Of a DNA stretch of 43,541 bases, positions 2,447 to 20,879 are shown piece by piece. A program made the position numbers and the translations under genes. The notes beneath the pieces were generated by a model, which was given only the letters and a program-made list of their open reading frames with translations, was not told the origin of the DNA and searched no databases. Positions within the stretch are counted from its first letter, which is position 1, and every line of letters begins with the position of its first letter. The DNA is from Methanosarcina spelaei (GTDB taxonomy: Archaea > Halobacteriota > Methanosarcinia > Methanosarcinales > Methanosarcinaceae), in NCBI RefSeq assembly GCF_002287235.1, contig NZ_LMVP01000124.1:1-43541 (forward strand), given 5' to 3'.

Positions 2447-2929
2447 TTATTTCTTTTTTCCGTGAACAGGGCACTTATCTCTTGTTTCTGGGGAGCAGTG
2501 GACATATTCTCCGGTTTTGACGAAATGCCTGAAATGTTCTATACAGATTTTTGGCTCTTCTTTTTGAGCTGTAAACTCTACAAATTTTTTAAATGTTTCT
2601 GCAGTTTTTGGATTCAGGATATGCTCAATCTTACAGGCATCTTCTTCTGCAATTGTCTCACTAACTCCAAGATGCATGAGAAATTCTTTGAGCATGCCGT
2701 ATGTCTCTTTAGTCTTATGTGCGATTTCGGTTCCTTTTTCTGTGAGAGTTACCCCTCCGTATTTTTCATAATTTATGTAACCTTCCTTGTCGAGTTTTTT
2801 GAACATACCAGTTACAGTCGATGGGCCGAGTTCCAGCTCTTTAGCTACATCTTTAACTTTGGCATATCCTTTTTCTTCAACAATTGAAGCGATAATCTTC
2901 AGGTAATCTTCATCTCTTTCCGTTGTCAT
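2447..2929 (-). CDS. DtxR/MntR-family metal-dependent transcriptional regulator
   Basis: Predicted cytoplasmic repressor that would sense Fe2+ or Mn2+. About residues 4-65 form the winged helix (EDYLKIIASIVEEKGYAKV, then ELGPSTVTGMFKKLDKEGY, then YGGVTLTEKG). The dimerisation/metal-binding region follows (GVSETIAEEDACKIEHIL). The C-terminus is Cys/His-rich (ICIEHFRHF, VHCSPETRDKCPVHGKKK) and may form an extra metal site. It is about 160 residues, so it lacks the SH3-like third domain of DtxR and resembles the short MntR type. I take ATG 2929; an upstream TTG at 2938 is possible. A perfect palindrome lies 23 bases upstream. It is the nearest candidate regulator for the metal genes to the right, but that link is inference. 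Confidence 0.85.
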   Translation of the reverse strand: MTTERDEDYLKIIASIVEEKGYAKVKDVAKELELGPSTVTGMFKKLDKEGYINYEKYGGVTLTEKGTEIAHKTKETYGMLKEFLMHLGVSETIAEEDACKIEHILNPKTAETFKKFVEFTAQKEEPKICIEHFRHFVKTGEYVHCSPETRDKCPVHGKKK

Positions 2930-2951
2930 AAAACTCAAACCCTTTTTGCGT

Positions 2952-4732: not shown

Positions 4733-5043
4733 ACAAAAAGATAAGTTAATCTCTCTCCGTTTCATTAACTTTCATTTTCACCTCCATTTCCCAAGAGATA
4801 GGCTATAATGTTCAGCATGAACTCGCCAGGTTCTTTAATACTCTGTAATGATGTTCTTTGGTTACAGTCAAAACAGTCTCCAAAAATATCCATTAAAAGT
4901 CACTTACGAGCAATATGGATTTTTGGCCTGTTTTCCAGCGTGTTCAGTGCTCTATCTACTTTTTGATATTCTTATTATATTGACATAATTTATTTTGTCT
5001 TACTAATCTTTACTACATATGTGAAATAAACTGGATGGTATAT

Positions 5044-5069
5044 ATAATTTTCGGGTACCCGAAAATTAT
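5044..5069 (-). promoter_or_regulatory. 26-bp perfect palindrome, iron-type operator with minus-strand promoter
   Basis: Arms ATAATTTTCGG and CCGAAAATTAT are separated by GTAC. The same 11-4-11 architecture occurs at 12117-12142 with one arm mismatch. Read on the minus strand the palindrome runs into an AT-rich TATA-like stretch (ATTATATATA) followed by TTATTTCA, paralleling the feo promoter (TATAAATA ... TTACATTTCA). No intact gene follows; the possible feoA relic at 4732 lies downstream. Confidence 0.65.
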
Positions 5070-5239
5070 GCTTAATTATGAATTATTATTGTTATTATCA
5101 ACTTCATTCTTTCCAATTAACTTTATTCTTTATTATCAACTTCATTCTTTATAATCAATTATCTTTTATGTATGGTAATTTATTCGTATTTGCAAAATGA
5201 ATTTTTACATTCCGCCAGGAGTTTAATAAATTCTGTTAA

Positions 5240-5455
5240 CTATCAGGACTTAGGCACTTAAAAAACAAAATCAATCACGGTAAAGATTGCAGATTAAAGC
5301 TACATTTTATACAGGAGCGGTCTGAGTTCATCCGGATACAGGAAGAGCTCGATGAACTGAAAAAATTAGAACAAAATATTCCGGAATTGGTTCAGGTTCT
5401 CATGCGTAGTCCGGAAGCTATGGAAATTATGAAGAACTTGAAGACGAAACAATGA
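5240..5455 (+). pseudogene. Coding fragment with coiled-coil character, no start
   Basis: A 71-codon open frame without a usable start until codon 55. The second half has clear coding bias and heptad-like spacing (RIQEELDELKKLEQNIPELV, then LMRSPEAMEIMKNLKTKQ, stop). It looks like the C-terminal end of a larger protein whose 5' part is gone. I do not recognise the family. Confidence 0.4.
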
Positions 5456-5613
5456 TTTTTCTTTTTAACTTCCTTTTTGTGGATACGAAGGAATTTAAAA
5501 AATTATGGAAGATAATTAAAAATACACTTTTTGCTTCATGTTAAGCAAATTTTTATATCGTTAGCTGTTAATTATATTTTAGAAAGCTTTTATCAAAATA
5601 GGAGGTCGTTTCT

Positions 5614-6057
5614 ATTACTGAAATTGTAGACTTAAATAAGTATCAATTTGCTAAAATCCTAGGTGAATTATATAGAATTCAAAAAAGAATCGATCCAAAA
5701 ATGTGCCGATGTTCTGATTCTATAATTTATGGGCTTATTAATGGTATTGAAGAAGCGATTAATGAGGAAGTATTCAGAAGTCCTTTTTCTGAAACTCAAA
5801 GAATAATTACCAAAGATGAGCTGAAATTTGTATATGATGTCCTCGATGAATACAAGGGTGAAAATCTCAATTCGTTTAAAGGGTATTATACGATAGAAAG
5901 AAAACTTGAGGAATATGGAATTGACAGAGAGAAGGCTATTAAGATTTTTACGTACCTGAAGCTCGATTCTAGGTACTATGAATTGATAGAAAAAATGAAT
6001 TCTATAGATTCCCCCGTCGAATTAAAAGACTTGGATCCTTTTGAATACGAGATTTAA
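5614..6057 (+). CDS. Unknown protein, probable ATT start
   Basis: The first ATG in the frame is at 5701 (118 residues) and has no ribosome-binding site. The frame stays open upstream, and a strong AGGAGGT (5600-5606) sits seven bases before ATT 5614, which would start a 147-residue protein beginning (M)TEIVDLNKYQFAKILGEL. No ATG, GTG or TTG lies in the added 29 codons. So either ATT is the start, as in a few known genes, or an ATG has mutated. The product is soluble, helical and rich in Glu/Lys with no membrane segment (e.g. YYTIERKLEEYGIDREKAIK). I do not recognise a function. An AbrB-like fragment and an ISL3 relic follow. Confidence 0.7.
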   Translation: MTEIVDLNKYQFAKILGELYRIQKRIDPKMCRCSDSIIYGLINGIEEAINEEVFRSPFSETQRIITKDELKFVYDVLDEYKGENLNSFKGYYTIERKLEEYGIDREKAIKIFTYLKLDSRYYELIEKMNSIDSPVELKDLDPFEYEI

Positions 6058-6224
6058 TGAAATCTATTTTTCGAAACTGTATCGATTGCCTTTCCTTTTT
6101 AAGCAATTCATTTTCATATTATCAGGGGTTCCTCAGAAACCCCTGCTGTGGAGCTCTTTAATCTTACTACTTTTTTTAACGTTCATTCATCACTTAATGG
6201 TGGTTAATGGGGATAGGTGGTATT

Positions 6225-6359
6225 ATGGCAAACAGTTTTGTGACCAAAATCACGGATAAGCAGTTTCGAATCGTAATCCCAATTGATATTCGAGAATTAG
6301 AGGGTATAGAAATTGATGAATTACCTCAAAAAACGGTACTTCTGGGCAACTCATTGTAG
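6225..6359 (+). pseudogene. Truncated AbrB/SpoVT-like DNA-binding domain
   Basis: A 44-codon frame from ATG 6225, behind a GGTGG sequence, reads MANSFVTKITDKQFRIVIP then DIRELEGIEIDE before leaving homology and stopping at TAG. The segment matches the swapped-hairpin AbrB/MazE pattern (V.I..K.Q.VIP..IRE..GI). A typical domain continues for another strand, so this is probably frameshifted, perhaps by the transposase relic that abuts it. It could still be expressed as a short protein. Confidence 0.45.
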
Positions 6360-6360
6360 G

Positions 6361-6492
6361 TTAACTCCAATAACTGAAGCTGCAAATACAGTAAAAAAAC
6401 ATTGGGGCGGAATACTGAATTATTTTGATTCCAAGATAAAGAATGAGCTGACCCCAAAACTCAAAAATTGCTTCTTCAGATATCAGCTTTAA
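6361..6492 (+). pseudogene. ISL3-family transposase C-terminal relic
   Basis: The frame reads LTPITEAANTVKKHWGGILN then YFDSKIKNE before diverging to a stop. The pattern AANT-K-HW-GIL-YFDS-I-N is characteristic of the C-terminal region of ISL3 (IS204/IS1001/IS1165) transposases, normally followed by LEG.NS. Only this piece survives. It marks the left border of the metal island. Confidence 0.6.
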
Positions 6493-6795
6493 AATAATCA
6501 GCTGAGCTACTGATTTGGAAAGTAGTTCTGAAACTCTTATGAATTCGGAATCACCGGTCTTTTTGGGAGTCCTAACAATAGAGAAAACGATAAAAGTCAG
6601 TCTTTACATTAAAACTATTTGAAAAAACTGGAAAACTATTTTCCATAAATTTGAAAGTCTGTTATGCTAACAAGCTTTTTCCAAAAAGGAGTTTGGGAAG
6701 CTTTCCCAAACGAAAATCTTCAAAAATGTAACAAAAAATCCTATTGCAGTATCAATAAGTGTCGCGTTTATTTGCTTCTTAACTGCCATGGGATT

Positions 6796-9700
6796 TTAAG
6801 AATCAGATTCTGTTTCATTGCCACCAGCAAATGCACTTTCATACAGTCCTACCTGAGGTACGTGATCTGATACACAGTTAATGGTCATAGTGCTGGTACA
6901 GTTTTTCACAGTAGAATTGTAAGCATAACCAGCGATACTTCCGACTTCGTTTCCACCACCGATGATACTACCTGAAGTGACACAACAGGATATCGCATAA
7001 GATGCAGGTATAGGTCTTGCATCAGCATACAAATCATGATAAAAGCTGCCACCTATCAACCCACCTACACGTTCAGTGCTGTCCGACACTTTCATAGTAA
7101 CATTCGTCGAGCATTCGGCTATCTGTGTAGGGGCATCCTCATCATAAGTTCCTGCATAACCCAGAAGTCCACCGATCATGGTATCGTTTTCACCCGAAGC
7201 AGTGATAGAAACATCATCAGCATGGCAGTTTATAACGGCAACTCCCTCAAACACGCCGCCTATCAGGCCGCCCAGTGCAAAATATTCATCACCTTCCCCG
7301 GTTACCGTGCCTGTTGCAGTGCAATTGATTACTGAGCAAGCATTCAGAGCGCCACCTAAAACGCCCGCCGAATTTCCAGAATCGCCCAAAACCACGATAT
7401 CAGCTGCAGCATTGCAGTCTTTCAGTTTTGCAGAGTCGTTACCCATATCGCTGCCACCCAAAATACCACCTACGTAGATATTACCCCGTGCCGTATTATT
7501 GCCGGTAAGAGTTATGTTTTCCAGGATGCAGTTCCCATATTGAAAGCCAACGACATCGCCGACACAAAAGTTTCCAGTCACATTAGCGCATTTCACCTTA
7601 AGGTTGGATATAGAGCAGGGATTATCCTGTTTTCCGACAATGCATCCGAACAAGCCTACTGACATGCCCTCAGGTTGATTAATGGCCATATTGCAGATTG
7701 TATGCCCATTACCATCAAAGGTTCCCGTAAAAGCTACTTCCGGATCCGGTGTCTCTTCATCCTCAGGTTTTTCAGATAAAGGCTTGAAAGCACCAATTGG
7801 TTCCCAGTTTTCGTAGCCTGAGAGGTCGATGTCCGCCGTCAAAACAAAGTCCTTATCCAGATAGTTGTGTACCTTGTTAAGCTGCTCAGCCGTGGCAACT
7901 TGATAAGGATCGGACTCCGTGCCATTGCCGCCCGCAAAAGCTTCATCGATGCCAAACAGGCATTCGAGCATAGCCACCTTATCAGCCGTACTGAATTCAT
8001 CACCCGCCTGGAGCATGGTCGGCATCCAACTGCTGAGCGTTACGCTGTCCGGTTTGTAAGTACTCAGCACATCCTTCGTTTCAGCATAGTAGAAGTGGAC
8101 GTGGGCGGGCAAGGTAGTCTCATCCATACCTTCGTCAAAGTGGGGTTTGAGCATTGCAATATAGGTCAGTACACCTGCATCGTCATCAGCCTTGAACACA
8201 TAGGTTGTCTCTCCTGCCAACATTCCCAAACTGTTGTTGCTCTCCACAAAGGTGTAAGGGTGAGACTCAATGACATTGCCGTCCTGGTCACAGAAATAGA
8301 TGGTCTTGTAATCATAACCAAATTTAATCTGGTAGATCTGTGTACCGTTATTTGCTGGAGCCGATGCCATATTTGCAAACATGGCTTTTAGAGATGCACC
8401 GTCAGTGACATTCACGCCAAACATTCCTGCCATCATTTGTGCCATCTCGGAGGAAGCTGCTGTATTCCACACGTCGTTCAGAGCTTCGTCGTTTACATAA
8501 TTGACAAGCGATTCAAAGCTACCACTACCGCTATTTGCCCAGGCAGAAAGATCCTTAAATCCTTCCGGCTGGTCAGAACTTTCGTACATTCTCTCGGTGG
8601 CACCAATCTTTTCCAGGAGGGGATTACCATCTAACTTTACGGTGCAGTTGATTTCGCTGCCTATGACGCAGTTCTCTGCACGTCCCGCAATCGCACCCGG
8701 AGTTATCGCTCCGTTTATTTGACCCGCGGTGCTACAATTGTTGATGGTAAACACTGTTTCCATTCCCATGTAGTAAAGTCCCGTGCCTACCAGTCCGCCG
8801 ATGTGTGTGGCGTTGGCCGTGTTCGTTACAAACTTGACCGAGCAATTTTCGATGGTTGCCGTATTTTCCGTGTCCCCGGTACCTGCGTATCCGCATAAAC
8901 CTCCTACTGCATGGGCCGAATTAGGCGCGGTAATAGTCACGTCCGCCGTGCATCCCGTGATGTTCTCCATATATTCAAGGCAGCCGCCGATGCCACCAAG
9001 GCCAACGGGCTCGTTGCCTTCTGCTATAATCTCGCCCCGGGCAGAGCAATTCTCAATGCTACCGGTAAAAGCGCCGCCAATGATCAGACCGCCGCATTCG
9101 GCCATATCGCACTGGATGATAGGCCCGCTTGAAAAGTTGTTATCGCCCAGTACGTTAATTGTTACATCTTCAACCGTGCAGTTCTTAACGCTTTCAAATC
9201 CATGTCCGCCGATAATCCCGCCGATGCAGTTGACGCCGGAAATCGTATTTTCACCTTTAAGCACCAGATTTTTCACCGAGGCGCAGTTAAGACCGATGAT
9301 TCCTGCCGTTGACATGTAGCCGTTAACCGAGGCATTTTCCACGGTCAGGTTTTTAATCACTGCATCGGAGGAAGCCACGCCAAACAGGCCGACACCGACA
9401 AGATCCTGGTGAGTTGCAGTCAGATTGGAGACAGTGTGGCCGTTGCCGTCAAATGTACCGGAAAAGGCAATATCGCTATGGCCTCCGTTGTCGAAAATAT
9501 TTTCGTCAATAGTTCCGATAGGCGTCCAATTTTTATATCCATCGAGATCGATATCCGCTATCAGGATAAAGTGCTTGTCCAGGTAATATCGTACCTGATC
9601 AAGCTGTACTGCTGTTGCGATTTGATAAGGAGAATTCTCTGTTCCGTTTCCTCCTGCAAAAACTCCCATGGCATCATAGGCACGGGCAACGATCAAGTTA

Positions 9701-10650
9701 GAAATAGCATCATGAGGCAGTAAAGAACGCTGTCCTTCTGCCGGATATAAGTAAGTTAATCCGTCTAAAACCTCAGGAATCTTGGTACCTGTGAACGTAC
9801 CTTCGGAAAGCATCACAGGCATAACAATAATGGAAGCTCCGGGATTTTCCTTTTGTTGTGCTTCTACAACCGTCCTGATGTTAGGTTCGCCTAGTGCCAC
9901 AAAACCATAATCAACATTCAGGAACTTGTAATTCTCTTTGAGCTGTTGCCCTAAAGAAGCCAGGTTATTTTTCCAAACGGCCAGGTCTGCCGCTTCAGAG
10001 GTCCCGTGAGCGGCCAACACTACAATTTCCTTGTCTGCCTGCCGGCTGACCGTTGCAATACGGTCATCTAGAATTTCCGCTACCAATTGGTGGTCGTCCA
10101 GGGCTGGTGTCATTTCAATCTCAGCATTGTGAGAAATTACTTCCAACCCTGCCTCAGTTGCTTCCTTTTCCTTAACGGAACTGGGAAGTCCCAACATGTA
10201 TTTGATTTCTTCAATATGATCCGAAGCCGAGGCCACAAATATCGGCACTGTGATAATATGTTCTACACCTTGCTTTTCCAAATTGGCAATCGCCGTCCCG
10301 ATGTCTTCCTCCTCAACATATTCCAGGAAACCCAATTCTATCGGGTACGGGCAATCAATACCTTCTACGGCATCCCGTACAGGTTGGTTCCATTTATCTT
10401 CCGGAGAGCCGTGCGCTACTACCAATATTCCTGTTGTTGAGGATAACACTCCTGTTTCTTCCCCATCAGCATAGGATGCGTTTTCTGACGCGCAGTTGAT
10501 GATCGTAGTGTTGGTGCAGTTTTCCACTGTAGAATTGTAGGCATACGCATTGGCCGGGAACAATAAAAAAATTATTGTCACCGTCAGCAGCATGGAGATA
10601 ATTCTTTTCAATTGCTGCTGATTACTTAAGGTAATATGTATTTTTTCCAT
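6796..10650 (-). CDS. Secreted CbiX-type chelatase / GLUG / ZinT-like fusion protein
   Basis: A 1284-residue extracytoplasmic protein. Residues 1-37 are a signal peptide (KRIISMLLTVTIIFLLFPA, then NAYA). Residues 74-329 are a two-repeat CbiX-type sirohydrochlorin cobaltochelatase domain: His80 (VVAHGSP) and His145 (SASDHIEEI) occupy the metal-site positions of repeat one, while repeat two keeps His215 (AAHGTSE) only. Residues 331-670 and 904-1260 are GLUG-type beta repeats, each opening FAGGNGTE-PYQ-ATA-QL and containing GTFDGNGHT. Residues about 697-901 between them resemble ZinT/YodA (FKDLSAW, then KPHFDEG and AHVHFYY, three candidate zinc-binding histidines). A third opening (AFAGGNETESDS) stops at once. 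The start has GAGGAG upstream. GC content is higher than in neighbours, suggesting transfer from bacteria. A role in capturing metal or metallated tetrapyrrole at the surface is inference. Confidence 0.85.
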   Translation of the reverse strand: MEKIHITLSNQQQLKRIISMLLTVTIIFLLFPANAYAYNSTVENCTNTTIINCASENASYADGEETGVLSSTTGILVVAHGSPEDKWNQPVRDAVEGIDCPYPIELGFLEYVEEEDIGTAIANLEKQGVEHIITVPIFVASASDHIEEIKYMLGLPSSVKEKEATEAGLEVISHNAEIEMTPALDDHQLVAEILDDRIATVSRQADKEIVVLAAHGTSEAADLAVWKNNLASLGQQLKENYKFLNVDYGFVALGEPNIRTVVEAQQKENPGASIIVMPVMLSEGTFTGTKIPEVLDGLTYLYPAEGQRSLLPHDAISNLIVARAYDAMGVFAGGNGTENSPYQIATAVQLDQVRYYLDKHFILIADIDLDGYKNWTPIGTIDENIFDNGGHSDIAFSGTFDGNGHTVSNLTATHQDLVGVGLFGVASSDAVIKNLTVENASVNGYMSTAGIIGLNCASVKNLVLKGENTISGVNCIGGIIGGHGFESVKNCTVEDVTINVLGDNNFSSGPIIQCDMAECGGLIIGGAFTGSIENCSARGEIIAEGNEPVGLGGIGGCLEYMENITGCTADVTITAPNSAHAVGGLCGYAGTGDTENTATIENCSVKFVTNTANATHIGGLVGTGLYYMGMETVFTINNCSTAGQINGAITPGAIAGRAENCVIGSEINCTVKLDGNPLLEKIGATERMYESSDQPEGFKDLSAWANSGSGSFESLVNYVNDEALNDVWNTAASSEMAQMMAGMFGVNVTDGASLKAMFANMASAPANNGTQIYQIKFGYDYKTIYFCDQDGNVIESHPYTFVESNNSLGMLAGETTYVFKADDDAGVLTYIAMLKPHFDEGMDETTLPAHVHFYYAETKDVLSTYKPDSVTLSSWMPTMLQAGDEFSTADKVAMLECLFGIDEAFAGGNGTESDPYQVATAEQLNKVHNYLDKDFVLTADIDLSGYENWEPIGAFKPLSEKPEDEETPDPEVAFTGTFDGNGHTICNMAINQPEGMSVGLFGCIVGKQDNPCSISNLKVKCANVTGNFCVGDVVGFQYGNCILENITLTGNNTARGNIYVGGILGGSDMGNDSAKLKDCNAAADIVVLGDSGNSAGVLGGALNACSVINCTATGTVTGEGDEYFALGGLIGGVFEGVAVINCHADDVSITASGENDTMIGGLLGYAGTYDEDAPTQIAECSTNVTMKVSDSTERVGGLIGGSFYHDLYADARPIPASYAISCCVTSGSIIGGGNEVGSIAGYAYNSTVKNCTSTMTINCVSDHVPQVGLYESAFAGGNETESDS

Positions 10651-10949
10651 AGTAAACTCCTCTTCGTGTCATTTTCTTGAAACTCATTTGCCAAAATGTT
10701 AAATAGTCGATATTTTAGTCGATAGCATACGCTAACCTGTTCAAGTCCTCTTATTACAAATGATACCGAATCAACAGAATGGCATCATAACCGTATTCTG
10801 TACTTTACTTCTGTAGCTTTTCTGAAAACTCGTCTTTTATCACATCTCTCTATAATGCTAATGATGTTTCTGACGAGATGCGACACCGTACTAGCAGTTA
10901 TGTATTTCATTAACGATGATCCGACAGTATACGAAGAAAATGCCGGTCA
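10651..10949. other. Gap between methyltransferase and chelatase genes
   Basis: About 300 bases without a gene. It contains a direct repeat of TAGTCGATA (10706-10726 region), and GTCGATA also occurs in the palindrome upstream of the methyltransferase. No clear TATA box was identified, so the chelatase gene may be co-transcribed with the methyltransferase gene. Confidence 0.4.
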
Positions 10950-11792
10950 TTAAGTGAATTGCAAACGGACTATTCTGTTATTGAAACGATTCTTAAAAGT
11001 GGGAATAACAGCCAGCCAGCCCAGCCAGCTCCCCCTGTCTTTGTGGTAATCAAAGTAGTTCCACTCGTTGACCACTCTAATTTGCTTATTATAGGTTTCC
11101 AATTCCTGGCTGTTTTTTATTCCCCATTGAAACTTAACATTCATCGTACCGACCGCGTCATGTTGTTTGCTCATCTTCACGATGTCCGGGCTCATTACTT
11201 CAAGAAGCATTTCTGCCATGGGAAATTCGGAAATTAGCTTATTCAGCAGGGTTTTGACCTCTTGTACGGTAAAATACATTAGTATTCCTTCGGCAATTAT
11301 CAATACCGGTTTGCCTGTTTCCCTGATTTTGCCCAACAAGGCATCATCGAAGACCGATTTGGCAATCATCCTGTAGCGGTCAGTTTCGACAAAAAAATTC
11401 TGCCTAATCTGGATTACTTCAGGTAAATCCAAATCGTACCAGTGTATATTGCCATTATCTACCTGCGCAAAGCGTGTATCCAGTCCGCAGCCAATATTAA
11501 TCACGACAGCATTGGGATACTTTTGGATGAAGTTTCTCGTCGCGTGATCCAAAAGTTCTGTTCTTACCACAATGCCAATTTGTGATTTCCATGCCTTGGA
11601 AAACTTCGCAAAATCATAGTCTATTCCATTCATTATCTCCGCTGCTTTAGCGTCTTTAATTATTGGACGGGCTTGTTCTGCTTCAACGGCCCGCGCCCAT
11701 AATGGGATAAGCAAGGTCTCAGGTACACCCTGTAAGTTAGGTTTTATATCCTGTAAATCCGGGTTATTATCTATACTAATAAAATCACCCAT
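10950..11792 (-). CDS. Class I SAM-dependent methyltransferase, COG3315 (LCMT/TcmP-like) family
   Basis: A 280-residue cytoplasmic methyltransferase. The SAM-binding motif I is AVVINIGCGLDTRF (about residues 94-107), the form typical of leucine carboxyl methyltransferases and polyketide/TcmP-type O-methyltransferases. An acidic motif II (WYDLDLPEVIQIR) and motif IV-V region (VLIIAEGILMYFTVQEV) follow. Length fits the family. Its substrate cannot be read from the sequence. It sits between the ABC transporters and the surface chelatase on the same strand, so a small carboxylate or metal-binding ligand is a possible substrate. Its start has only weak ribosome-binding potential, and a 13-bp palindrome lies 18 bases upstream. 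Confidence 0.85.
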   Translation of the reverse strand: MGDFISIDNNPDLQDIKPNLQGVPETLLIPLWARAVEAEQARPIIKDAKAAEIMNGIDYDFAKFSKAWKSQIGIVVRTELLDHATRNFIQKYPNAVVINIGCGLDTRFAQVDNGNIHWYDLDLPEVIQIRQNFFVETDRYRMIAKSVFDDALLGKIRETGKPVLIIAEGILMYFTVQEVKTLLNKLISEFPMAEMLLEVMSPDIVKMSKQHDAVGTMNVKFQWGIKNSQELETYNKQIRVVNEWNYFDYHKDRGSWLGWLAVIPTFKNRFNNRIVRLQFT

Positions 11793-11809
11793 TTCTCAAT
11801 TATGAGTCT

Positions 11810-11822
11810 TTATCGTCGATAA
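11810..11822. promoter_or_regulatory. 13-bp palindrome just upstream of the methyltransferase start
   Basis: TTATCG-T-CGATAA is a perfect inverted repeat 17 bases before the ATG. It could be a bacterial-type operator or a transcript hairpin close to the ribosome-binding site. The half CGATA recurs upstream of the chelatase gene. Confidence 0.35.
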
Positions 11823-12085
11823 GTTCGAATATTCCCCTCATTTTTTAACCAGAATTGGGAATAATGGTTTTCAGTCTTGAACCTTAATTTTCTGACCACC
11901 GCTCACATTGAGTTTGAATTAGTCCTTCTGTTTTCTAACAAGCTCCATTTCACAACCTCCATAAAAATTTTCTTTAGCATTGCCTAACAAATATGTATTT
12001 TTGTCCTGTTTTAACGCCTAAGAGGCATTACGATTTTTCGGACTTTTACTATACTACCAAATATATTCTGAATTGCGAATTTTTC

Positions 12086-12142
12086 CCATAAGCTTGAAAT
12101 GTAATAGTAACTATTTATAATTTTCTGATTACCGAAAATTAT
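12086..12142 (-). promoter_or_regulatory. Iron-type operator plus TATA promoter matching the feo promoter
   Basis: The near-palindrome at 12117-12142 has arms ATAATTTTCTG (plus strand) and CCGAAAATTAT separated by ATTA, one mismatch from the perfect palindrome at 5044. Reading the minus strand, TATAAATA (12119-12112) is followed by GTTACTATTACATTTCA. The feo promoter has TATAAATA followed by ATTACTGTTACATTTCA, so operator half and core promoter are both conserved. This implies co-regulation of the methyltransferase/chelatase genes with feoAB. Confidence 0.7.
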
Positions 12143-12469
12143 GCTAATACATAAAATATTATTTGTAAATAGAATATTATTTGCAAAATCATATATTATT
12201 TGTAATTACAAATGCGCCCATTTTTGCTTTTTGCCCGATATCCTAACAAACTCTGAGAATTTTCCTAAAATCAAATTACGTGCGTTTACTCCGCCCTGAA
12301 GAGGCTGTCAGGCAATTCATTTCCAGGTCAAAATCATGTAAAAAACAAGGTGTCCAAAGCCTTTAAATCGAGAAAAAAGAATTCCTTTATTACTTACAGT
12401 AATTGTCTAACAGTGAAAAGTATAGGGTAAGTTTCGGGACGCCCGACAGGGACATTGGGTTCGGTTACT

Positions 12470-12916
12470 TCATCGGCAGAAGGTCAAAGCTGTTGTGTTT
12501 TTTCCTACCGCAGCTTCATCCGGTTCCCACACACTGAGTAGCACTTCGTCCTAAACGATCTCGGTAAAAAGCTGGTGGTTCACATCCTGCATCACCATTT
12601 AACAGTATTTCAGCCGTTGCTTTCTTCACATTCCTGGCGTCTTTCAGTATTTTACGGACGGCTGAAAGGTCGGCGTAGACGCCCTTCTGCCTGCAAGCTC
12701 GTCATTGGTCCCATTTGGATGATTTTGCTGCCGACGGCCGCCAGGATTTGATCGATGTAGCGTACCGTGTTCAGCCGGTAGGCCATCGTAATAAAGATCT
12801 TGTTCTTCCTCAGCTCGGCTACGGCCATTTGCATTTTCGCGCTCATTCTCCAGATCTATGTTGGCTGTCGCTTTGTCCAGAATGATAGTGGCGCGTCCTT
12901 GAGCAAGACGCGGGCC
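12470..12916 (-). pseudogene. Decayed ABC ATPase, exporter-type end joined to an ECF-type ATPase fragment
   Basis: The first part, split over frames, reads ARVLLKDAP, then TIILDKATANIDLENE (Walker B region with Lys for the catalytic Glu), then MAVAELRKNKIFITMAYRLN (H-loop His replaced by Tyr), then KGVYADLSAVRK. This is the C-terminal end of an exporter-type ABC ATPase with at least two frameshifts. It runs into AEILLNG and, from ATG 12592, MQDVNHQLFTEIV, stop, DEVLLSVWEPDEAA, the Q-loop region of an ECF/CbiO-type ATPase with an in-frame TAG. GC content is high, as in the chelatase gene. It is a relic of a larger transporter set. Confidence 0.75.
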
Positions 12917-12939
12917 CTTATCTATATCCCCAAAAAGTA

Positions 12940-14673
12940 TCAGATACTTTGGTATTGCGCCTTTAACATTGAGGAAAAAATTCCTTGTTTTTCTTTTAAT
13001 TCCAAAGGTGTGCCTGTTTCTGCGATAACGCCGTCTTTAATAACAACAATCTTATCAGCTCCTAAAACTGTTCTCATACGGTGCGCAATAATCAAGACGG
13101 TTTTATTTTTTATAAGCTCGCTGAGTGCTTTCTGGATTTTACTCTCATTTTCCGCATCAAGAGATGCTGTAGCCTCATCAAGCAGGATAATTGGAGCGTC
13201 TTTTAGTATTGCTCTGGCTATTGATATACGCTGTCTTTCGCCTCCCGATAATCTTTCTCCGTTTTCTCCTATCAAGGTGTCGTATCCTTGCGGAAGCTTT
13301 TTAACGAACTCATCACATTGGGCAAGCTGCGCTGCTTTCATTACTTCTTCATCAGTTGCGTCTTTCTTTCCAAGACGGATATTATCCATAACGCTTGAAT
13401 TAAAAAGCGTAACATCTTGAAAAACAATTGAATAATTCTTTAGAAGGGTTTCAGGATCAACCAGGGAGATATCTTCTCCACCCAGAGTGATGGTCCCTTT
13501 GTCGATATCCCAGAAACGCGCAGACAGTTTTGCCACCGTGCTTTTCCCGCCGCCGGAAGGGCCTATAAGCGCGGTCACGTCGCCTTGCTTTGCGGTAAAG
13601 TTTACATTCTTTAATGTTTGCACACTATCCTGATAGGAAAAGTCGACGTTATTAAATCCGATATCGTAGTTTTTCGGACGAAACTCGGTTTTTCCTTCCT
13701 GTCCTGGCATGTCATCCATCTCTTTCATGCGTTTTATCCGCACGTTGAGGAATAGAAGTAGCGCAAAGTTGTTCAGGGCGTCCATAATCGGATTATAAAT
13801 ACGGGCCGTAACGACAAGAAACACAAGATAAGTAAAAATGTCTATGGAACCTGTTGATAAAAGATAAGCTCCAACCAATATTACACTTGGAAGACCGAGC
13901 TTTAATATAACGTAAGAAAGGTTGACAAAAGCTCCTATCAAAAGCTCGCTTTTAATCATAAATTTTTCGTAATTGTCTAATTTTGTGTTTAAAGTTCTTG
14001 AAAAAGCGTCTTCTCTATTATAGGATTTTATTTCGTAGACCGAGTCAAGCCCTTCTTGAATATTATCCGAGATATCCCTTTTAACATCATAAAGCTCTTT
14101 ATGCATCCTGTTTTGGAGCTTCCTGGACAGATAAAAGACCAGGACTGCAACCGGAACCACCCAAAACACGGCAAGAGAGAGCATCCAGTTGTAAAAAAAC
14201 ATCATCACGCCTATGATCAGAACAGTCGACATCGCCGCGTAGATTTGAGGAACCGCATGGGAAAATTGCTGCTCTATCTGTGTAGCATCCTCCATTATTG
14301 TAGAGCTTAAATCGGCAATATCCTTTTTGCCGAAAAAAGCCAGTGGAAGCTTTCTCAGTGTCTCAGCCAGGCTGATCCGTCTACGGGCGCTTTCTTCGTA
14401 AATTTTGGTATAGGTCGAGTCGTACTGAAAATATGCGATAACAAACATTAACAGGAAAAATGTTCCAGACATAATAACGTAGTAGAGAACGCTATTTCCC
14501 TGGCTGTTTGAAGAGTTTAAAAGTAAACTCATGTCTTCATCTAAAAATTTAAAGCCGAGGATTACCGGAAGCATAAAGCTAATGTCCATCACTATGGTCC
14601 AAATTATCGAGTGAAGAAGGTCTTTCGCACCTTTTTCAGACATAGCATAGTTGTTTTGAAAATATTTAAGCAT
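12940..14673 (-). CDS. ABC transporter half-molecule, permease-ATPase fusion (second of pair)
   Basis: Type IV (exporter-fold) ABC half-transporter of about 577 residues. Six predicted membrane helices span roughly residues 25-310 (e.g. VLIIGVMMFFYNWMLSLAVF). The nucleotide-binding domain has Walker A GPSGGGKS (374-381 counted from the upstream GTG), signature LSGGERQR (478-485), Walker B IILLDEA (498-504) and His534, so it should hydrolyse ATP. I take ATG 14673 behind GGTGG rather than GTG 14682. It overlaps the stop of the upstream half-transporter by eight bases, so the two are translationally coupled and probably form a heterodimer. Such pairs include exporters and siderophore importers (YbtPQ, IrtAB); the setting beside feo and a chelatase favours metal or metallophore traffic, which is inference. 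Confidence 0.88.
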   Translation of the reverse strand: MLKYFQNNYAMSEKGAKDLLHSIIWTIVMDISFMLPVILGFKFLDEDMSLLLNSSNSQGNSVLYYVIMSGTFFLLMFVIAYFQYDSTYTKIYEESARRRISLAETLRKLPLAFFGKKDIADLSSTIMEDATQIEQQFSHAVPQIYAAMSTVLIIGVMMFFYNWMLSLAVFWVVPVAVLVFYLSRKLQNRMHKELYDVKRDISDNIQEGLDSVYEIKSYNREDAFSRTLNTKLDNYEKFMIKSELLIGAFVNLSYVILKLGLPSVILVGAYLLSTGSIDIFTYLVFLVVTARIYNPIMDALNNFALLLFLNVRIKRMKEMDDMPGQEGKTEFRPKNYDIGFNNVDFSYQDSVQTLKNVNFTAKQGDVTALIGPSGGGKSTVAKLSARFWDIDKGTITLGGEDISLVDPETLLKNYSIVFQDVTLFNSSVMDNIRLGKKDATDEEVMKAAQLAQCDEFVKKLPQGYDTLIGENGERLSGGERQRISIARAILKDAPIILLDEATASLDAENESKIQKALSELIKNKTVLIIAHRMRTVLGADKIVVIKDGVIAETGTPLELKEKQGIFSSMLKAQYQSI

Positions 14674-16474
14674 ATAAACCACCTTTGTTTACAGCATTTT
14701 TAGTGGCTATTTTCCAAGCGACAGATTTTTGGTATTCGTCCCACATGGTTTTGTAGATCCCGCCTTTATTCAGCAGCTCCGCGTGTGTTCCTTCTTCCGC
14801 AATTTTTCCGCTTTCTATAACCAGGATTCTGTCGACATTCCGTACGCTTGTAAGACGATGGGCAATCATGAGAGTTGTTTTTTCACGACTAAGCTCTTTA
14901 AGGGCTTTTTGAATTAAATGCTCATTTTCGGGGTCTGCAAAGGCAGTGGCTTCATCTAAAAGTACGATAGGAGCATTCTTGACCATAGCTCTGGCAAGCG
15001 CAATTCTCTGCTGTTCTCCTCCTGAAAGATAGGTTCCTTTTGAGCCTATTACCGTATCAAGTCCATCAGGAAGATTTTCGATAATTTCTCTTGACTGTGA
15101 AAAATTAATTGCGTTGTTTAATTCTTCTTCTCCTGCATTTTCCTTTCCAAAAACTATATTTTCTCTTAATGAACCTTTAAACAGCTTAGTGCTTTGAAAA
15201 ACAAAGGAAATATTGTCCATTAGTTCTTTTTTAGGAATATCCTTAACATTTATTCCTCCGACTAATACTGCGCCTTCATCTGCATCCCAAAAGCGAGCGG
15301 CTAGCCGGGCAATGGTTGTTTTTCCGCTTCCTGAGGCACCGACAAGTGCGATCGTTTCACCTTCGTTTAATTTAAAGCTGATTTTATCGATAGCGCGCTT
15401 GTCGCTTCCTTCATATGAAAACACTACGTCCTTAAACTCCAGACCGTGATTTTTAATGTTTTTTGTGTTTTCACTATAGCTCATATTCGGATAATTTAAA
15501 AGATTGTCCAGCCTGTCAATAGCCTGCTCTGCAATCAAAGTATTTTGCTGGAAATACATCGATTTCATCAAAAGCATAGTAAAAATTGGCGATATCAGAA
15601 TGTAAAAGATAAAGTCTGCAAGCATAAGGGGAAGATTTTCTCCTCTTCCGATTAAAAAAATGGCCATTGGAATTAAAAAGAATGCTGTGGATTGCATAAT
15701 TACGGTATAAAATGACATCGGTTTTCGCCAAAGAAGCGTATACGCATAAACCATCTCTCTATACTTGATTATGCTGTCATAGAATCGTTTAAAAGAAAAT
15801 ATTGATTGACCGAATGTTTTTACAACCGGAATGCCGCGAATATATTCCACTGATTCGGAGCTCATCTCTTCCAATGAATCATAATACATTTTTTGGAATT
15901 TTTTACCTTCAGTGCTCGTCATAAATTTCATTGTTACAAAACCCAATATAATTGGAACAAGAGAAGCAAGCCCCATTCTCCACTCTATGATAAAAATCAA
16001 AGCTAAAAGAATAATGGGGGAGACGACACTGCCTGCCATGTCCGGGAGCTGATGTGCTAAAAACGTATGAGTTGTTCCCGCTCCGTCGTTTACAATTTTT
16101 CGTATTTTTCCGCTTGAATGCTGATCAAAAAAACCAAGGGGCATAGACAGTATTTTTTCCATACCAACTTTTTGCATTCCGACTTCAACGCGAAAAGCTG
16201 CGAGATGTGAGCTCATAAGTGCGAAAAAATAGACTATTATTCCTCCTATTGCACTTGCAAAGGCGAGCCACGCATAAAAACTGACATTTGAAACATCAAT
16301 CGATTGCGGAGCTGATAATATATCACGTGTTATATACCATACAAGCACGAAAGGCAAGATGTTAAGAACTGCGGAAATTCCTGACAATACTAATGACAAA
16401 GGCAAAAGTACTTTCTTCTTGCCCATGTAAGGCGTGAACCTTTTTAAAATAAAAATTTTTTTCTCTTTTGGCAT
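14666..16474 (-). CDS. ABC transporter half-molecule, permease-ATPase fusion (first of pair)
   Basis: A 602-residue exporter-fold half-transporter. Membrane helices lie at about residues 20-310 (VLLPLSLVLSGISAVLNILP, VVSPIILLALIFIIEW). The ATPase domain has Walker A GASGSGKT (379-386), signature LSGGEQQR (483-490), Walker B VLLDEA (504-509) and His539, all canonical. The ATG is preceded by GGAAG. It overlaps the next gene by eight bases and is its likely partner. The C-terminal extension after EYQKSVAWKI is short. The sequence does not settle the direction of transport or the substrate; by position it belongs to the metal island. It could alternatively be a multidrug-type exporter. Confidence 0.88.
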   Translation of the reverse strand: MPKEKKIFILKRFTPYMGKKKVLLPLSLVLSGISAVLNILPFVLVWYITRDILSAPQSIDVSNVSFYAWLAFASAIGGIIVYFFALMSSHLAAFRVEVGMQKVGMEKILSMPLGFFDQHSSGKIRKIVNDGAGTTHTFLAHQLPDMAGSVVSPIILLALIFIIEWRMGLASLVPIILGFVTMKFMTSTEGKKFQKMYYDSLEEMSSESVEYIRGIPVVKTFGQSIFSFKRFYDSIIKYREMVYAYTLLWRKPMSFYTVIMQSTAFFLIPMAIFLIGRGENLPLMLADFIFYILISPIFTMLLMKSMYFQQNTLIAEQAIDRLDNLLNYPNMSYSENTKNIKNHGLEFKDVVFSYEGSDKRAIDKISFKLNEGETIALVGASGSGKTTIARLAARFWDADEGAVLVGGINVKDIPKKELMDNISFVFQSTKLFKGSLRENIVFGKENAGEEELNNAINFSQSREIIENLPDGLDTVIGSKGTYLSGGEQQRIALARAMVKNAPIVLLDEATAFADPENEHLIQKALKELSREKTTLMIAHRLTSVRNVDRILVIESGKIAEEGTHAELLNKGGIYKTMWDEYQKSVAWKIATKNAVNKGGLYA

Positions 16475-17045: not shown

Positions 17046-17372
17046 TCAGGAGATTTCAGACCCAACCTTCTGTTCATGACATACTCTTTTTCCCTTTTCT
17101 GTCAGTTTGTAAACCGTACACGTCGAAATAGTAGATTTTTCTAAAAACCCGAAACATCCACAACTTTTGCATGAATCGGAACAGACAGGAGAGAGAAGGG
17201 AGTTATTGTCCTGAACCTTCTCAACATGACCCATTCTTTCCATTATTTCGAGCAAACCTTTAAGCTGTTGCGTACTCATTTTCAGATGTCTCGATATCTC
17301 ACTCAAAGATATATTGCCTTTTTTTTCTACTTCTGCCATCTGTTTTAACACGTACATGTATCCCAGTACCAT
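17046..17372 (-). CDS. feoC: FeoC-like winged-helix regulator with Cys cluster
   Basis: A 108-residue DNA-binding protein. Residues about 5-52 form a winged helix (YMYVLKQMAEVEKKGNISLS, then EISRHLKMSTQQLKGLLEIM). A loop carries Cys64, Cys68, Cys71 and Cys73 (CSDSCKSCGC), the arrangement by which FeoC proteins may bind an iron-sulfur cluster; Cys85 and Cys98 are extra. It is longer than enterobacterial FeoC (about 80 residues). It is the last gene of the feo set, 227 bases after the Cys-rich protein. GGAGGA precedes the ATG. Whether it controls transcription or FeoB stability is unknown. Confidence 0.75.
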   Translation of the reverse strand: MVLGYMYVLKQMAEVEKKGNISLSEISRHLKMSTQQLKGLLEIMERMGHVEKVQDNNSLLSPVCSDSCKSCGCFGFLEKSTISTCTVYKLTEKGKRVCHEQKVGSEIS

Positions 17373-17599
17373 TGATCTATTTCCTCCTCATTGCTTAGTA
17401 AGTTTGAATTTATTTTCCCAGCTCATGTATATGCAAGAAATATCAAGCCAAGGTACAGAGCAGGTTTGAGATCTTCAATCGCTGTCCATTTCCTCAAATT
17501 CTTCTGCAAATAGCACCCGGACGTCGATAATTAACCAATAAACCAGGTTTCCTCTGCAGTCCCGAAAATTAAGGTTACAAAGGAATCTTTCTTAGTTTT

Positions 17600-17812
17600 T
17601 TAGTTATTTTTGCCTTTTTTGTTGGATGATAGGCTGCTGCAGGGAATGATATAATCGTTGTTGCCACAATCATTTACATTACAACCTGCGCAGCCGATGC
17701 ATTGGCCTTTCTTCGCTTTTCTGATTGTATACCGTATGGTAAACACTATAAAGATTAGAAGGAGTGTACCTATCAGGATTGTTGCAGCATTGGCAATTAT
17801 CCAGGCAATCAC
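17600..17812 (-). CDS. FeoB-associated Cys-rich membrane protein
   Basis: A 70-residue protein with one N-terminal membrane helix (about residues 5-28) followed by basic residues and a Cys cluster, Cys38, Cys41, Cys44 and Cys49, plus Cys58 (CIGCAGCNVNDC). This is the pattern of the small FeoB-associated protein common in Firmicutes and other anaerobes. Its start codon overlaps the feoB stop in ATGA, so translation is coupled. A role in delivering or sensing Fe2+ at FeoB is the usual assumption. Confidence 0.85.
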   Translation of the reverse strand: MIAWIIANAATILIGTLLLIFIVFTIRYTIRKAKKGQCIGCAGCNVNDCGNNDYIIPCSSLSSNKKGKNN

Positions 17813-20001
17813 TCACTCACCCCCGCAGTTGCCGATAAGTTGGAATCGGATTTTTCAATATCATGCTGTTTTGGTGCAGGCCTGAATAACATAAAGAGAA
17901 GTACGGCAAGAAGAATAAACGCTACCGCTGTTCCTGCGGTAAAACTGCCACCGCTAAAGAACGTGCCAAGCTGATAAAAAATCAGCGCAATGACATAAGC
18001 AAATACGCACTCGTAACCTATTGCGAATACCGTCCATTTCCAGTTGTTCATTTCGGTACGGATAGTATTCATCGCCGCAAAGCAGGGAGCGCAAAGCAAG
18101 TTGAAGATAAGGAATGAGTAAGCAGCAATTCCACTCGAGAATAGGGCTGCAATCGGAGACAATCCTCCAACATTCGCAGAATCAACCATCTCAAGGGCCA
18201 AATCTTCATTACCAATGGATGTAAGAACACCAAATACTCCTACAACCTGTTCTTTGGCTGCCAGGCCCATAATGGATGCCACAGTAGTTTCCCAGCGACC
18301 GAATCCAAGAGGAGCGAAGATTAACGCTAAAGAATTGCCAATGTTATGTAGCACGCTGTTATTCAGGTTGTCTACTAATCCAAAGGTTCCGTTTACGAAG
18401 CCAAAACTGGCGCCAAACCATACGAGAATGCTTGCTAACGTATATACTGTGAAAGCTTTTTTAACAAATGAGCTACCGCGTTCAAACATGCTTCTGATGA
18501 CATTTCCGGCCATTGGGATATGGTAGGCGGGTAATTCTATAACAAACGGGGATGACTCACCCATGAACAGCTTTGTCTTTTTCAAAATAATACCGGATAT
18601 AACCACTGCGCCTATGCCAAGAAAGTACGCGGAAGGTGCTACCCACCATGTACCGCCGAATACCGCGCTCGAAATAAGTGCAATAAGGGGCAGCTTTGCA
18701 CCGCATGGCATGAAAGTGGTTGTCATAATCGTCATACGCCGGTCATTTTGTTGCTCAATAGTTCTTGCAGCCATAATGCCAGGAACACCGCAACCCGTAC
18801 CGATAAGCAATGGAATGAAACTTTTGCCTGACAAACCTACTTTCCTGAAAATACGGTCCATCAAGAAAGCGATACGCGCCATGTAGCCACTGTCTTCCAG
18901 AATAGCAAGAAAGAAAAACAGGATGAGCATTTGCGGCAAAAATCCAATAATTGCGCCGAGGCCTCCTACGATGCCGTCCACAATAAGGCCGATCATCCAT
19001 TCTGCTGTTCCGATTGATGTAAGCCAATTTGCAAGTGGTGCTTGTATCCATTCACCAACAAACATATCATTGGTAAAATCCGTAACATATGACCCGACAG
19101 TTGAAACTGATACGTAATAAACCAAAAACATAATTGCAGCAAATATCGGAAGACCAAGCCAGCGACTTGTAACAATGGAATCAATTTTATCGGATAAGGT
19201 CGTGCCTGAACGGGACTTCTTTACGTAGGAGCGTACTACATCAGATATATATTCATAGCTTTCTGATGCGATAATGGATGCGCTGTTATCGTCAAGCTCT
19301 TCTTCGCAGGCAAGGATGATTTGCTCGATTTTTCCTTTTATAACATCGGATAGCGTGATTCGCTCTAGTACCTTTTCATCCCGTTCAAAAAACTTTATGG
19401 AATACCAGCGAAGATTTTCATCTGGCACATTATTTTTGATTAATTCGGCAATATTGGACAGGGCAAGTTCTACTGGCTTCGAAAATTGACGTTTAAAAGT
19501 TCCTTTTTTTCCGGCCTTTGCCAATTCAATCGCTTTTTTAGTAAGCGCTTCCAGGCCAGTCCCTTTTTGCGCGGATGTTTCAATAACCGGGCAACTAAGA
19601 GTTTCTGAGAGTTTTTTAATGTCAATTATATCTCCACTTTTGTTTACAATATCGATCATGTTAAGAGCGATCACTACTGGAATGCCCACGTCGAGTATCT
19701 GTGTAGTCAAGTAGAGATTTCTTTCGATATTTGATCCGTCAACAATATTGATAATTACATCCGGTTTTTCGTTCACCAAATAATCTCGGCTTATAACTTC
19801 TTCCAACGTATATGGAGAAAGAGAATAAATACCAGGCAAGTCGATTATCGTTACATCTTTATATTTTTTAAGCCTGCCTTCTTTTTTATCAACCGTAACG
19901 CCAGGCCAGTTACCGACGCGCTGCGATGATCCCGTAAGGGCATTGAACATTGTGGTCTTACCGGAGTTCGGATTTCCGGCAAGCGCTATTGTGACTGGCA
20001 A
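17809..20001 (-). CDS. feoB: Ferrous iron transporter FeoB
   Basis: A 730-residue GTP-dependent Fe2+ importer of the cytoplasmic membrane. The N-terminal G domain has G1 GNPNSGKT (9-16), G3 DLPG (54-57) and G4 NMID (114-117). A helical GDI-like region (about 175-265) leads to the membrane domain, with the two Gate motifs readable (IGTGCGVPGIMAART and LCAPCFAAMNTIRTE, both with the conserved Cys). Length fits the family and no key residue is missing. It is fourth in the feo operon, 86 bases after the third feoA, and overlaps the Cys-rich gene by four bases. Operon layout resembles Firmicutes more than typical archaeal feoAB. Confidence 0.96.
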   Translation of the reverse strand: MPVTIALAGNPNSGKTTMFNALTGSSQRVGNWPGVTVDKKEGRLKKYKDVTIIDLPGIYSLSPYTLEEVISRDYLVNEKPDVIINIVDGSNIERNLYLTTQILDVGIPVVIALNMIDIVNKSGDIIDIKKLSETLSCPVIETSAQKGTGLEALTKKAIELAKAGKKGTFKRQFSKPVELALSNIAELIKNNVPDENLRWYSIKFFERDEKVLERITLSDVIKGKIEQIILACEEELDDNSASIIASESYEYISDVVRSYVKKSRSGTTLSDKIDSIVTSRWLGLPIFAAIMFLVYYVSVSTVGSYVTDFTNDMFVGEWIQAPLANWLTSIGTAEWMIGLIVDGIVGGLGAIIGFLPQMLILFFFLAILEDSGYMARIAFLMDRIFRKVGLSGKSFIPLLIGTGCGVPGIMAARTIEQQNDRRMTIMTTTFMPCGAKLPLIALISSAVFGGTWWVAPSAYFLGIGAVVISGIILKKTKLFMGESSPFVIELPAYHIPMAGNVIRSMFERGSSFVKKAFTVYTLASILVWFGASFGFVNGTFGLVDNLNNSVLHNIGNSLALIFAPLGFGRWETTVASIMGLAAKEQVVGVFGVLTSIGNEDLALEMVDSANVGGLSPIAALFSSGIAAYSFLIFNLLCAPCFAAMNTIRTEMNNWKWTVFAIGYECVFAYVIALIFYQLGTFFSGGSFTAGTAVAFILLAVLLFMLFRPAPKQHDIEKSDSNLSATAGVSE

Positions 20002-20086
20002 ACTTTATGCCTCCTTTAAGAATCTAAAGTTAGTTTCTAACCTCGTGAGTTAAAAAATCGGAGATTTCATTCTCATTTCTAGCGTG

Positions 20087-20314
20087 TTATTTTACTTCTA
20101 TCATTTCCGCGTCAGTTTTCCGCAAAGATAACTCATAACCTCTTACTTTCACTTCAACCGGGTCTCCGAGCGGAGCTACCTTACGTACAAAAATCTCCAC
20201 TCCTTTTGTAATGCCCATATCCATTATCCTGCGCTTGAGAGCGCCTTCCCCGCAAATTTTTATTACAGTGACGGTTTGCCCACATGGTACTTCTCTCAAC
20301 GATGCCATATTCAT
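20087..20314 (-). CDS. feoA: FeoA, SH3-like partner of FeoB (third in operon)
   Basis: A 75-residue canonical FeoA: SLREVPCGQTVTVIKICGEG, then ALKRRIMDMGITKGVEIFVR, then APLGDPVEVKVRGYELSLRK. All hallmark positions (RR..DMG...G, APLGDP, LSLR) are present. It is the FeoA copy nearest feoB and the most standard of the three, so it is the most likely to act on FeoB. Confidence 0.93.
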   Translation of the reverse strand: MNMASLREVPCGQTVTVIKICGEGALKRRIMDMGITKGVEIFVRKVAPLGDPVEVKVRGYELSLRKTDAEMIEVK

Positions 20315-20346: not shown

Positions 20347-20559
20347 TTATACCATAATTTTTTTAGCCAATTCTTCACTGATTGCAATTCGACTATCTTT
20401 TATGCTTACAATTACATTACCGAATGTTTTTGATAGTACGCATACTTCACTACCAGCGGTGAAGCCAAGATTTTCAAGATGATTTCTTATTTTCTCCTGT
20501 CCCCAAAACGCTTTGATACAATTTGCTTCTCCAATCTGTGCCAGTACTAACGGCATCAT
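20347..20559 (-). CDS. Divergent FeoA-domain protein (second in operon)
   Basis: A 70-residue protein with the FeoA fold pattern (MMPLVLAQIGEANCIKAF, then IRNHLENLGFTAGSEVCVLS, then NVIVSIKDSRIAISEELAKK). It lacks the APLGDP motif and the RR pair of canonical FeoA, and carries a Cys at residue 14. Such divergent FeoA proteins often precede a canonical one in Firmicutes-type operons. Its ATG overlaps the preceding stop by one base (TAATG), with GGGAGGAA just upstream. Confidence 0.85.
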   Translation of the reverse strand: MMPLVLAQIGEANCIKAFWGQEKIRNHLENLGFTAGSEVCVLSKTFGNVIVSIKDSRIAISEELAKKIMV

Positions 20560-20879
20560 TACAAATTCCTCCCGTATTGATATGATAGGTAAAGTGAGCC
20601 TTGATTCGTAAGAGGCATTTGTGTGGTCAAATTAAAACCCTCAAGCTGTTCAACAACTGTCATTTCAGCGCCCTGCTTCCTGAGAGATAGTTTTTCTTTC
20701 AACTTAATCTCGACAAAGTTTCCCAATGGGGCTTTTTTGGTTGCGCTCAGGATTGCTCCTGAAACCATGCCTATATCAAGAGGCTGCTTGCGAGAGTTTC
20801 CCTTACCTTTTATCCGGATAATGCGAGCTCTCTGACCTATTTTCAGCATGTTGAGGGTTTTATCGATGATTTCTGTCAC
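20559..20879 (-). CDS. FeoA-domain protein with C-terminal extension (first in operon)
   Basis: A 106-residue protein, longer than a typical 75-residue FeoA. The core is MLKIGQRARIIRIKGKG, then QPLDIGMVSGAILSATKK, then APLGNFVEIKLKEKLSLRKQ. The usual R-R-L-L-D-x-G is R-K-Q-P-L-D-I-G. About 27 residues follow the SH3 core (from EGFNLTTQ to GRNL), with no recognised motif. The start is GTG 20879; ATG 20849 would give the standard FeoA length. It is the promoter-proximal gene of the operon, with the iron-type boxes upstream. Confidence 0.85.
   Translation of the reverse strand: MTEIIDKTLNMLKIGQRARIIRIKGKGNSRKQPLDIGMVSGAILSATKKAPLGNFVEIKLKEKLSLRKQGAEMTVVEQLEGFNLTTQMPLTNQGSLYLSYQYGRNL

Follow-up and report, generated by a model that had tools for sequence, protein, structure and literature searches.

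The window, that is, the whole stretch of DNA analysed here, comprises 43,541 nucleotides of the methanogen Methanosarcina spelaei (contig NZ_LMVP01000124.1 of the assembly GCF_002287235.1). The gene in question occupies positions 6796–10650 of its minus strand and encodes a protein of 1284 residues, in which a predicted signal peptide is followed by a tandem CbiX chelatase domain and two blocks of GLUG repeats flanking a ZinT-like domain (Table 1). The open reading frame (ORF) begins with ATG and is uninterrupted; the preliminary description of this DNA had recognised it correctly without assigning the strand. The gene occurs as a single copy in the genome (5.09 Mb, 559 contigs) and its G+C content is 47%, compared with 39% for the window. 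An assembly artefact was ruled out: the N-terminus, the domains and the C-terminal end were found again in another Methanosarcina genome (G078), and the architecture also occurs in other genomes, including that of a Syntrophomonas wolfei isolate.

Table 1. Features of the chelatase gene and of its surroundings in the window (ABC, ATP-binding cassette; SAM, S-adenosylmethionine).
Feature	Positions	Strand	Basis
Whole gene, 1284 residues: signal peptide, CbiX tandem, GLUG, ZinT-like, GLUG	6796..10650	-	ORF list and Pfam
Predicted signal peptide, residues 1-38 (hydrophobic core, ANAYA)	10537..10650	-	Hydropathy and inspection
Tandem CbiX (class II chelatase) domain, residues 67-325; H80, E110 and H145 in the first lobe, H215 in the second	9676..10452	-	Pfam, homologue boundaries, conservation, PDB profile
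First GLUG repeat block, residues about 331-686	8593..9660	-	Pfam Glug; limits by inspection
ZinT-like domain, residues 687-902; triad H837, H850, H852	7945..8592	-	hhalign with decoys; no Pfam match
Second GLUG repeat block, residues about 905-1268	6847..7938	-	Pfam Glug, best stretch 1232-1258
DtxR-family metal-dependent repressor	2447..2938	-	Pfam; found at every Methanosarcina locus compared
SAM-dependent methyltransferase (LCM family), conserved neighbour	10950..11792	-	Pfam, synteny
ABC exporter-type half transporter A	12940..14682	-	Pfam; counterpart in Syntrophomonadaceae L036 at 85% identity
ABC exporter-type half transporter B	14666..16474	-	Pfam; 88% identical copy in L036
FeoC-like regulator	17046..17372	-	Pfam
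FeoB ferrous iron transporter	17809..20001	-	Pfam
FeoA	20559..20879	-	Pfam

The hydropathy scan showed a hydrophobic N-terminus ending in ANAYA and, past it, no segment with a mean hydropathy above 1.68. These two features indicate that the protein is exported and is not a membrane protein, in agreement with the signal peptide proposed earlier. The Pfam analysis of the 1284-residue protein yielded CbiX at 81.9 bits (cut-off 22, E 4.9e-23, two stretches), together with CbiK at E 4e-6, and GLUG (PF07581) at 94.4 bits (cut-off 20.5, E 1.6e-27, eight stretches), which bears out both the CbiX-type domain and the two GLUG blocks of the preliminary description. The third family named there, ZinT (PF09223), gave no Pfam match at E ≤ 1 or E ≤ 10.

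The profile built from the CbiX relatives matched the CfbA-type sirohydrochlorin chelatase structures in the PDB (6m25 and others) with an E-value of 5.6e-9, and the closest NCBIfam models for the CbiX part are those of the F430 nickelochelatase CfbA family. The score of the 1284-residue protein against the CfbA model NF033198 was 77.6 bits, below the 120-bit equivalog cut-off. Meanwhile, an exported protein of Desulfotruncus arcticus (L035:7606-11151) scored 135 bits against the same cut-off, and automatic annotation would therefore misname that protein.

The protein shares with SirB, CfbA and CbiX the family, the SirB-like two-lobe tandem and the His-Glu-His site of the first lobe. The metal site of SirB consists of His10, Glu43 and His76, and its second lobe carries Arg134 and Leu200 (PMC11301274). 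Judged by the sequence motifs, H80 and E110 are the counterparts of SirB His10 and Glu43, whereas H215 takes the place that Arg134 has in the Bacillus subtilis enzyme. Counted on the sequences, H145 lies one residue past the place expected for the canonical His75/His76, and this offset is common to the cytoplasmic Bacillales homologues. Among the 67 aligned relatives, H80 is invariant, E110 is replaced by something other than E or D in two, and H145 is missing from two proteobacterial proteins, so that both histidines named in the preliminary description were confirmed. H215 is lacking only in four rows, which come from L039, L040 and L060; of these, three are degenerate second copies. One Bacillales homologue (L050) is encoded in a siroheme operon, between the genes of a tetrapyrrole methylase and a siroheme dehydrogenase. 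As the ligand residues are kept and the offset of H145 is found in cytoplasmic homologues, one of them in a siroheme context, the CbiX metal site looks functional, judged from its conserved residues, and the preliminary description's alternative of a site that is not formed is not what these residues suggest. No monomeric class II chelatase with four histidines is reported to occur in nature, and a three-histidine form was obtained by mutation, the R134H change of SirB increasing its nickel-chelatase activity (PMC11301274). The cytoplasmic tandem CbiX of L050 (8989-9771) and those of other Bacillaceae and Thermoactinomycetaceae loci have a natural three-histidine set equivalent to H80, H145 and H215.

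The domain between the GLUG blocks was compared with ZinT by profile alignment. For this, six copies of the domain were aligned with a four-member ZinT set using hhalign, which gave a score of 28.9, rising to 44.1 when a second, divergent calycin-like domain from the Methanosarcina acetivorans relative (itself a weak ZinT match of 15 bits, E 0.05) was added. None of the 444 decoys (best 24.2 and 24.8, respectively) and none of the 196 column shuffles (best 20.7 in both comparisons) reached the ZinT score. The signal needs bridging sequences: without the Clostridia-type secreted protein L103, whose own ZinT match has an E-value of 2.5e-4, the score was 22.0 and lay inside the decoy range. Two other candidate bridges from Bacillota, the amidase-like L104 and the sugar-nucleotide enzyme L105, proved to be unrelated weak matches, leaving L103 as the one useful bridge.

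In the predicted succession of helices and strands, and in the three histidines, the domain matches Escherichia coli ZinT, the sequence of which was verified against PDB 1s7d; the KPH and AHVH motifs align with its zinc ligands SDH and SHFH. H837, H850 and H852 are invariant among five copies of the domain; in the G676 copy, KPG replaces KPH and the first histidine is lost. The AlphaFold models of the domain reached a predicted local distance difference test (pLDDT) score of 57 with five sequences and 51 with eight, and Foldseek gave no significant match to them; the low confidence is due to the shallow alignments. A PDB profile search with the alignment of the domain returned only a chance match to a restriction enzyme. 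Independent support for the kinship comes from Methanosaeta (L060), in which secreted ZinT and CbiX proteins are encoded by two separate genes: the ZinT gene (Pfam E 1e-11, over the cut-off) lies upstream, and its end is 15 bp from the CbiX gene. In that Methanosaeta ZinT protein (L060:937-1680), the N-terminal ZinT motif (LSLEKWSGRWVN...LDDPLMDPVYEAAAN) stands after the barrel part, as in a circular permutation or a cut tandem. Like ZinT/YodA and the ZinT domain of AdcA, the middle domain belongs to an exported protein, has a collinear predicted secondary structure and carries three histidines in the places of the zinc ligands; unlike them, it is missed by the Pfam model and shares its chain with GLUG blocks and a chelatase. 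Thus, the ZinT-like domain of the preliminary description stands as a probable remote relative of ZinT, with a likeness above chance, and not as a member of that family.

The preliminary description knew of no such architecture in archaea. It recurs in three Methanosarcina genomes and also in Syntrophomonas, so it is rare and not unique to the M. spelaei genome. Among 238 genomes of the archaeal class, the domain search for the ZinT-like part detected it in 3; the numbers were 3 of 63 for the class of S. wolfei and 1 of 398 for a phylum sample, and 113 genomes of the class of D. arcticus gave one chance-level match. The M. acetivorans relative (L016:3879-16559) has 4226 residues and comprises four copies of CbiX, of which the last is truncated, as well as ZinT-like, second calycin-like and FmdE-like parts; its C-terminus lies inside a CbiX lobe, with a transposase-like remnant beyond. 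Two further Methanosarcina relatives have 1650 residues (G099) and 710 residues, the latter lacking the ZinT part (G078). In the sister species G079, all that is left is a fragment (L024, C2 near 4276452-4276613) that matches the final 54 residues of the 1284-residue protein at 96% identity, indicating an apparent loss of the gene; it adjoins feoC and a second-type feoB.

In S. wolfei and a Syntrophomonadaceae metagenome-assembled genome (MAG), the proteins are of the type SLH-GLUG-ZinT-CbiX-FmdE, the FmdE part being weak or recognised by eye, and one genome of the Syntrophomonas class encodes a GLUG-ZinT-SLH protein without CbiX directly behind feoA-feoB. The SLH domains point to a cell-wall surface location for these bacterial versions, with anchoring to the S-layer in Syntrophomonas. 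The D. arcticus protein contains CbiX-FmdE twice and a C-terminal domain of the copper-amine-oxidase type. Secreted CbiX proteins, mostly with FmdE-like parts, were also found in Methanolobus, in anaerobic methanotrophic archaea (ANME-2 and ANME-3), Methanoperedenaceae, Methanophagales and Methanosaeta. FmdE (PF02663) is present in D. arcticus, in L044 and weakly in L036, and in a neighbouring gene at L040; unlike this wider family, the 1284-residue protein has no FmdE match in Pfam. Nothing on an exported CbiX-GLUG or CbiX-FmdE protein was found in the literature searched, and the wider family appears to be undescribed there.

Another explanation would be a surface or adhesion protein in which the chelatase and ZinT-like domains are decaying remnants without a metal function. 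The GLUG blocks and the size range of 710 to 4226 residues do resemble surface-protein evolution, and the KPG of the G676 copy and the fragment in G079 could be taken as decay. However, the CbiX metal ligands are kept in nearly all copies with an intact domain and the linkage to iron genes is repeated, and we consider this explanation highly improbable.

In the CbiX tree, which has no outgroup root, the domain of the 1284-residue protein groups with the Methanosarcina copies and then with D. arcticus (100/98). This group falls inside an 11-row clade with Syntrophomonas (98/97), apart from a 33-row archaeal clade (99/98). As the domain groups with Bacillota and not with the general archaeal family, and as the ABC pair of the window has a counterpart 85–88% identical in the Syntrophomonadaceae MAG, the gene has apparently been exchanged between Methanosarcina and fatty-acid-degrading bacteria of the Bacillota, as far as the sequences can tell. 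We infer the direction of the transfer from the patchy presence of the gene within Methanosarcina.

The feoA, feoB and feoC genes, the ABC pair, the LCM methyltransferase gene and the DtxR gene all lie on the same strand as the chelatase gene, and this order is partly kept in three other Methanosarcina genomes. Feo or DtxR genes were found near 11 of the 33 secreted-CbiX loci, two of the 11 (L061 and L062) being near-duplicates; the 19 loci of cytoplasmic Bacillales homologues, each about 11–19 kb long, had none. The 11 loci belong to Methanosarcina, Methanolobus and relatives, Methanosaeta, Methanoperedenaceae, ANME-2c and Methanophagales. Methyltransferases of differing families adjoin the copies in Methanosarcina, Methanolobus, Desulfotruncus and Syntrophomonas, and the Desulfotruncus version is followed by genes for an FecB-type binding protein, a methyltransferase, FecCD and an ATPase. 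The ABC pair of the window matched only general ABC exporter models in NCBIfam. We take it to resemble the siderophore importers of the ABC-exporter type, YbtPQ and IrtAB, in being paired exporter-type halves beside iron genes; the AraC regulators beside the bacterial copies are another likeness to that setting. In Desulfotruncus and a number of ANME-type archaea (L035 6418-6849, L039, L048, L061 10198-11352, L069, L084), a DUF2325 gene repeatedly adjoins the genes of secreted CbiX and Feo proteins, and its product is a possible partner of secreted CbiX.

Because the neighbours are FeoA, FeoB, FeoC, DtxR and a YbtPQ-like ABC pair, the context points to iron more than to zinc or cobalt. By its signal peptide and this iron-gene context, the tandem CbiX departs from the usual cytoplasmic siroheme, B12 or F430 setting; the exported protein, fused to GLUG and ZinT-like parts, has no siroheme, F430 or B12 genes alongside. 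This bears on the possibility that an exported chelatase salvages cobalt or nickel tetrapyrroles or their precursors, loading the metal into scavenged sirohydrochlorin-type rings or binding corrinoids for ABC uptake. Such a role would agree with CfbA as the nearest NCBIfam family, with the D. arcticus protein above its cut-off and the 1284-residue protein below it, and with the H80, H145 and H215 pattern, which is that of the engineered SirB R134H with raised nickel activity (PMC11301274). On the other hand, no gene of corrinoid or F430 biosynthesis or B12 transport was recognised beside the chelatase gene, no riboswitch or other known RNA was found within 5000-21500, and the neighbours are iron genes, which makes salvage improbable.

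We favour, with about even confidence, an exported protein of iron acquisition that would capture a metal or a metallated tetrapyrrole outside the membrane. This retains the earlier suggestion of a protein that binds or strips metal or metallated tetrapyrrole, which fits the gene context, with iron placed before zinc and cobalt. In class II chelatases, metal exchange with the tetrapyrrole takes place in a cleft, and ZinT binds zinc and hands it over to a transporter. By analogy, the cleft between the two lobes of the CbiX tandem, a class II pair, would hold a metal ion and, probably, also a tetrapyrrole; a second metal-holding module would be the ZinT-like domain, and the GLUG blocks would be spacers or surface contacts. 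The metal, captured at the presumed surface location or freed from a metallated tetrapyrrole, would then be passed to FeoB or to the neighbouring ABC transporter. The most attractive version, in which the chelatase works in reverse and releases iron from heme-like compounds, seems to us possible but, taken on its own, rather unlikely.

Chelatase-type proteins outside the cytoplasm are known. CbiK-P of Desulfovibrio vulgaris is a periplasmic cobaltochelatase of class II, like the 1284-residue protein located outside the cytoplasm; unlike it, CbiK-P is a single-domain CbiK, unfused and not known to be linked to feo. In Bacteroides, the de-chelatase HmuS, a chelatase-type protein outside the cytoplasm, frees heme iron (PMC12583661), and in B. 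fragilis FeoAB together with CobN-like proteins serves the use of heme iron (PMC6460266). The proposed logic is the same, a non-cytoplasmic chelatase-type protein combined with ferrous uptake in anaerobes, but HmuS and BtuS are membrane-bound class I (CobN-like) proteins and no close sequence kinship is to be expected.

Several points weigh against iron acquisition by such a route. HmuS, of the class I line, depends on NADH, and outside the cell there is none. Of the 33 secreted-CbiX loci, two-thirds have no Feo or DtxR gene, many of the contigs being short, and no convincing common operator was detected upstream of the iron genes and the chelatase gene. Zinc-type ZnuA/ABC-3 genes adjoin some relatives (Methanolobus; L026, L027, L039). 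The native substrate of CbiX domains is sirohydrochlorin, and class II chelatases are not known to work in reverse physiologically.

The zinc-type transporters lead to the strongest rival, a plain metal sponge, in which both domains bind free divalent ions (Zn, Fe, Co or Ni) at the cell surface for delivery to transporters, the chelatase fold being a scaffold that handles no tetrapyrrole. ZinT is a zinc-recruitment family, ZnuA-type transporters adjoin the Methanolobus and L039 relatives, FmdE, a further domain found in the wider family, occurs repeatedly with CbiX, and the two histidines of the first lobe are hardly ever lost. Against the sponge, the two-lobe chelatase domain is conserved as a whole, with E110 and H215, which a simple site could do without, and the methyltransferase beside many copies suggests a small organic molecule. 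We regard the sponge as unlikely, though clearly less so than salvage of cobalt or nickel rings.

Extended to the whole family, iron acquisition by a reversed chelatase leads to a proposal that we rate as slightly more doubtful than reversal in the M. spelaei protein itself. In methanogens, ANME and their syntrophic bacterial partners, exported class II chelatases running in reverse, with ZinT- or FmdE-like metal holders, may remove iron from heme or from further metallo-tetrapyrroles at the surface for Feo, the genes moving between archaea and Bacillota. Little is known of the iron routes of methanogens beyond FeoB; a survey of 326 genomes of methanogens, methanotrophs and alkanotrophs treated FeoB and heme use, with siderophores unmentioned in its main text (PMC8351635). 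The conserved exported chelatases, with their links to iron genes in the Methanosarcinales, in ANME and in syntrophic Bacillota, would be a directly testable candidate. The domains themselves are known and their combination is new; the interest lies in a natural case, common to archaea and bacteria, of a biosynthetic fold of cofactor synthesis relocated outside the cell beside iron genes. It is also a warning that automatic annotation will label such proteins as cobalt or nickel chelatases of cofactor synthesis.

Two other genes of the window were noted. The minus strand encodes a complete DUF3160 protein with a lipoprotein-like start at 23753-26059 (Pfam, E 2e-224). The product of the plus-strand gene at 38961-41801 resembles U32-type peptidases by eye and contains a long internal insert of GSVENESLEN/DKESLEK repeats.

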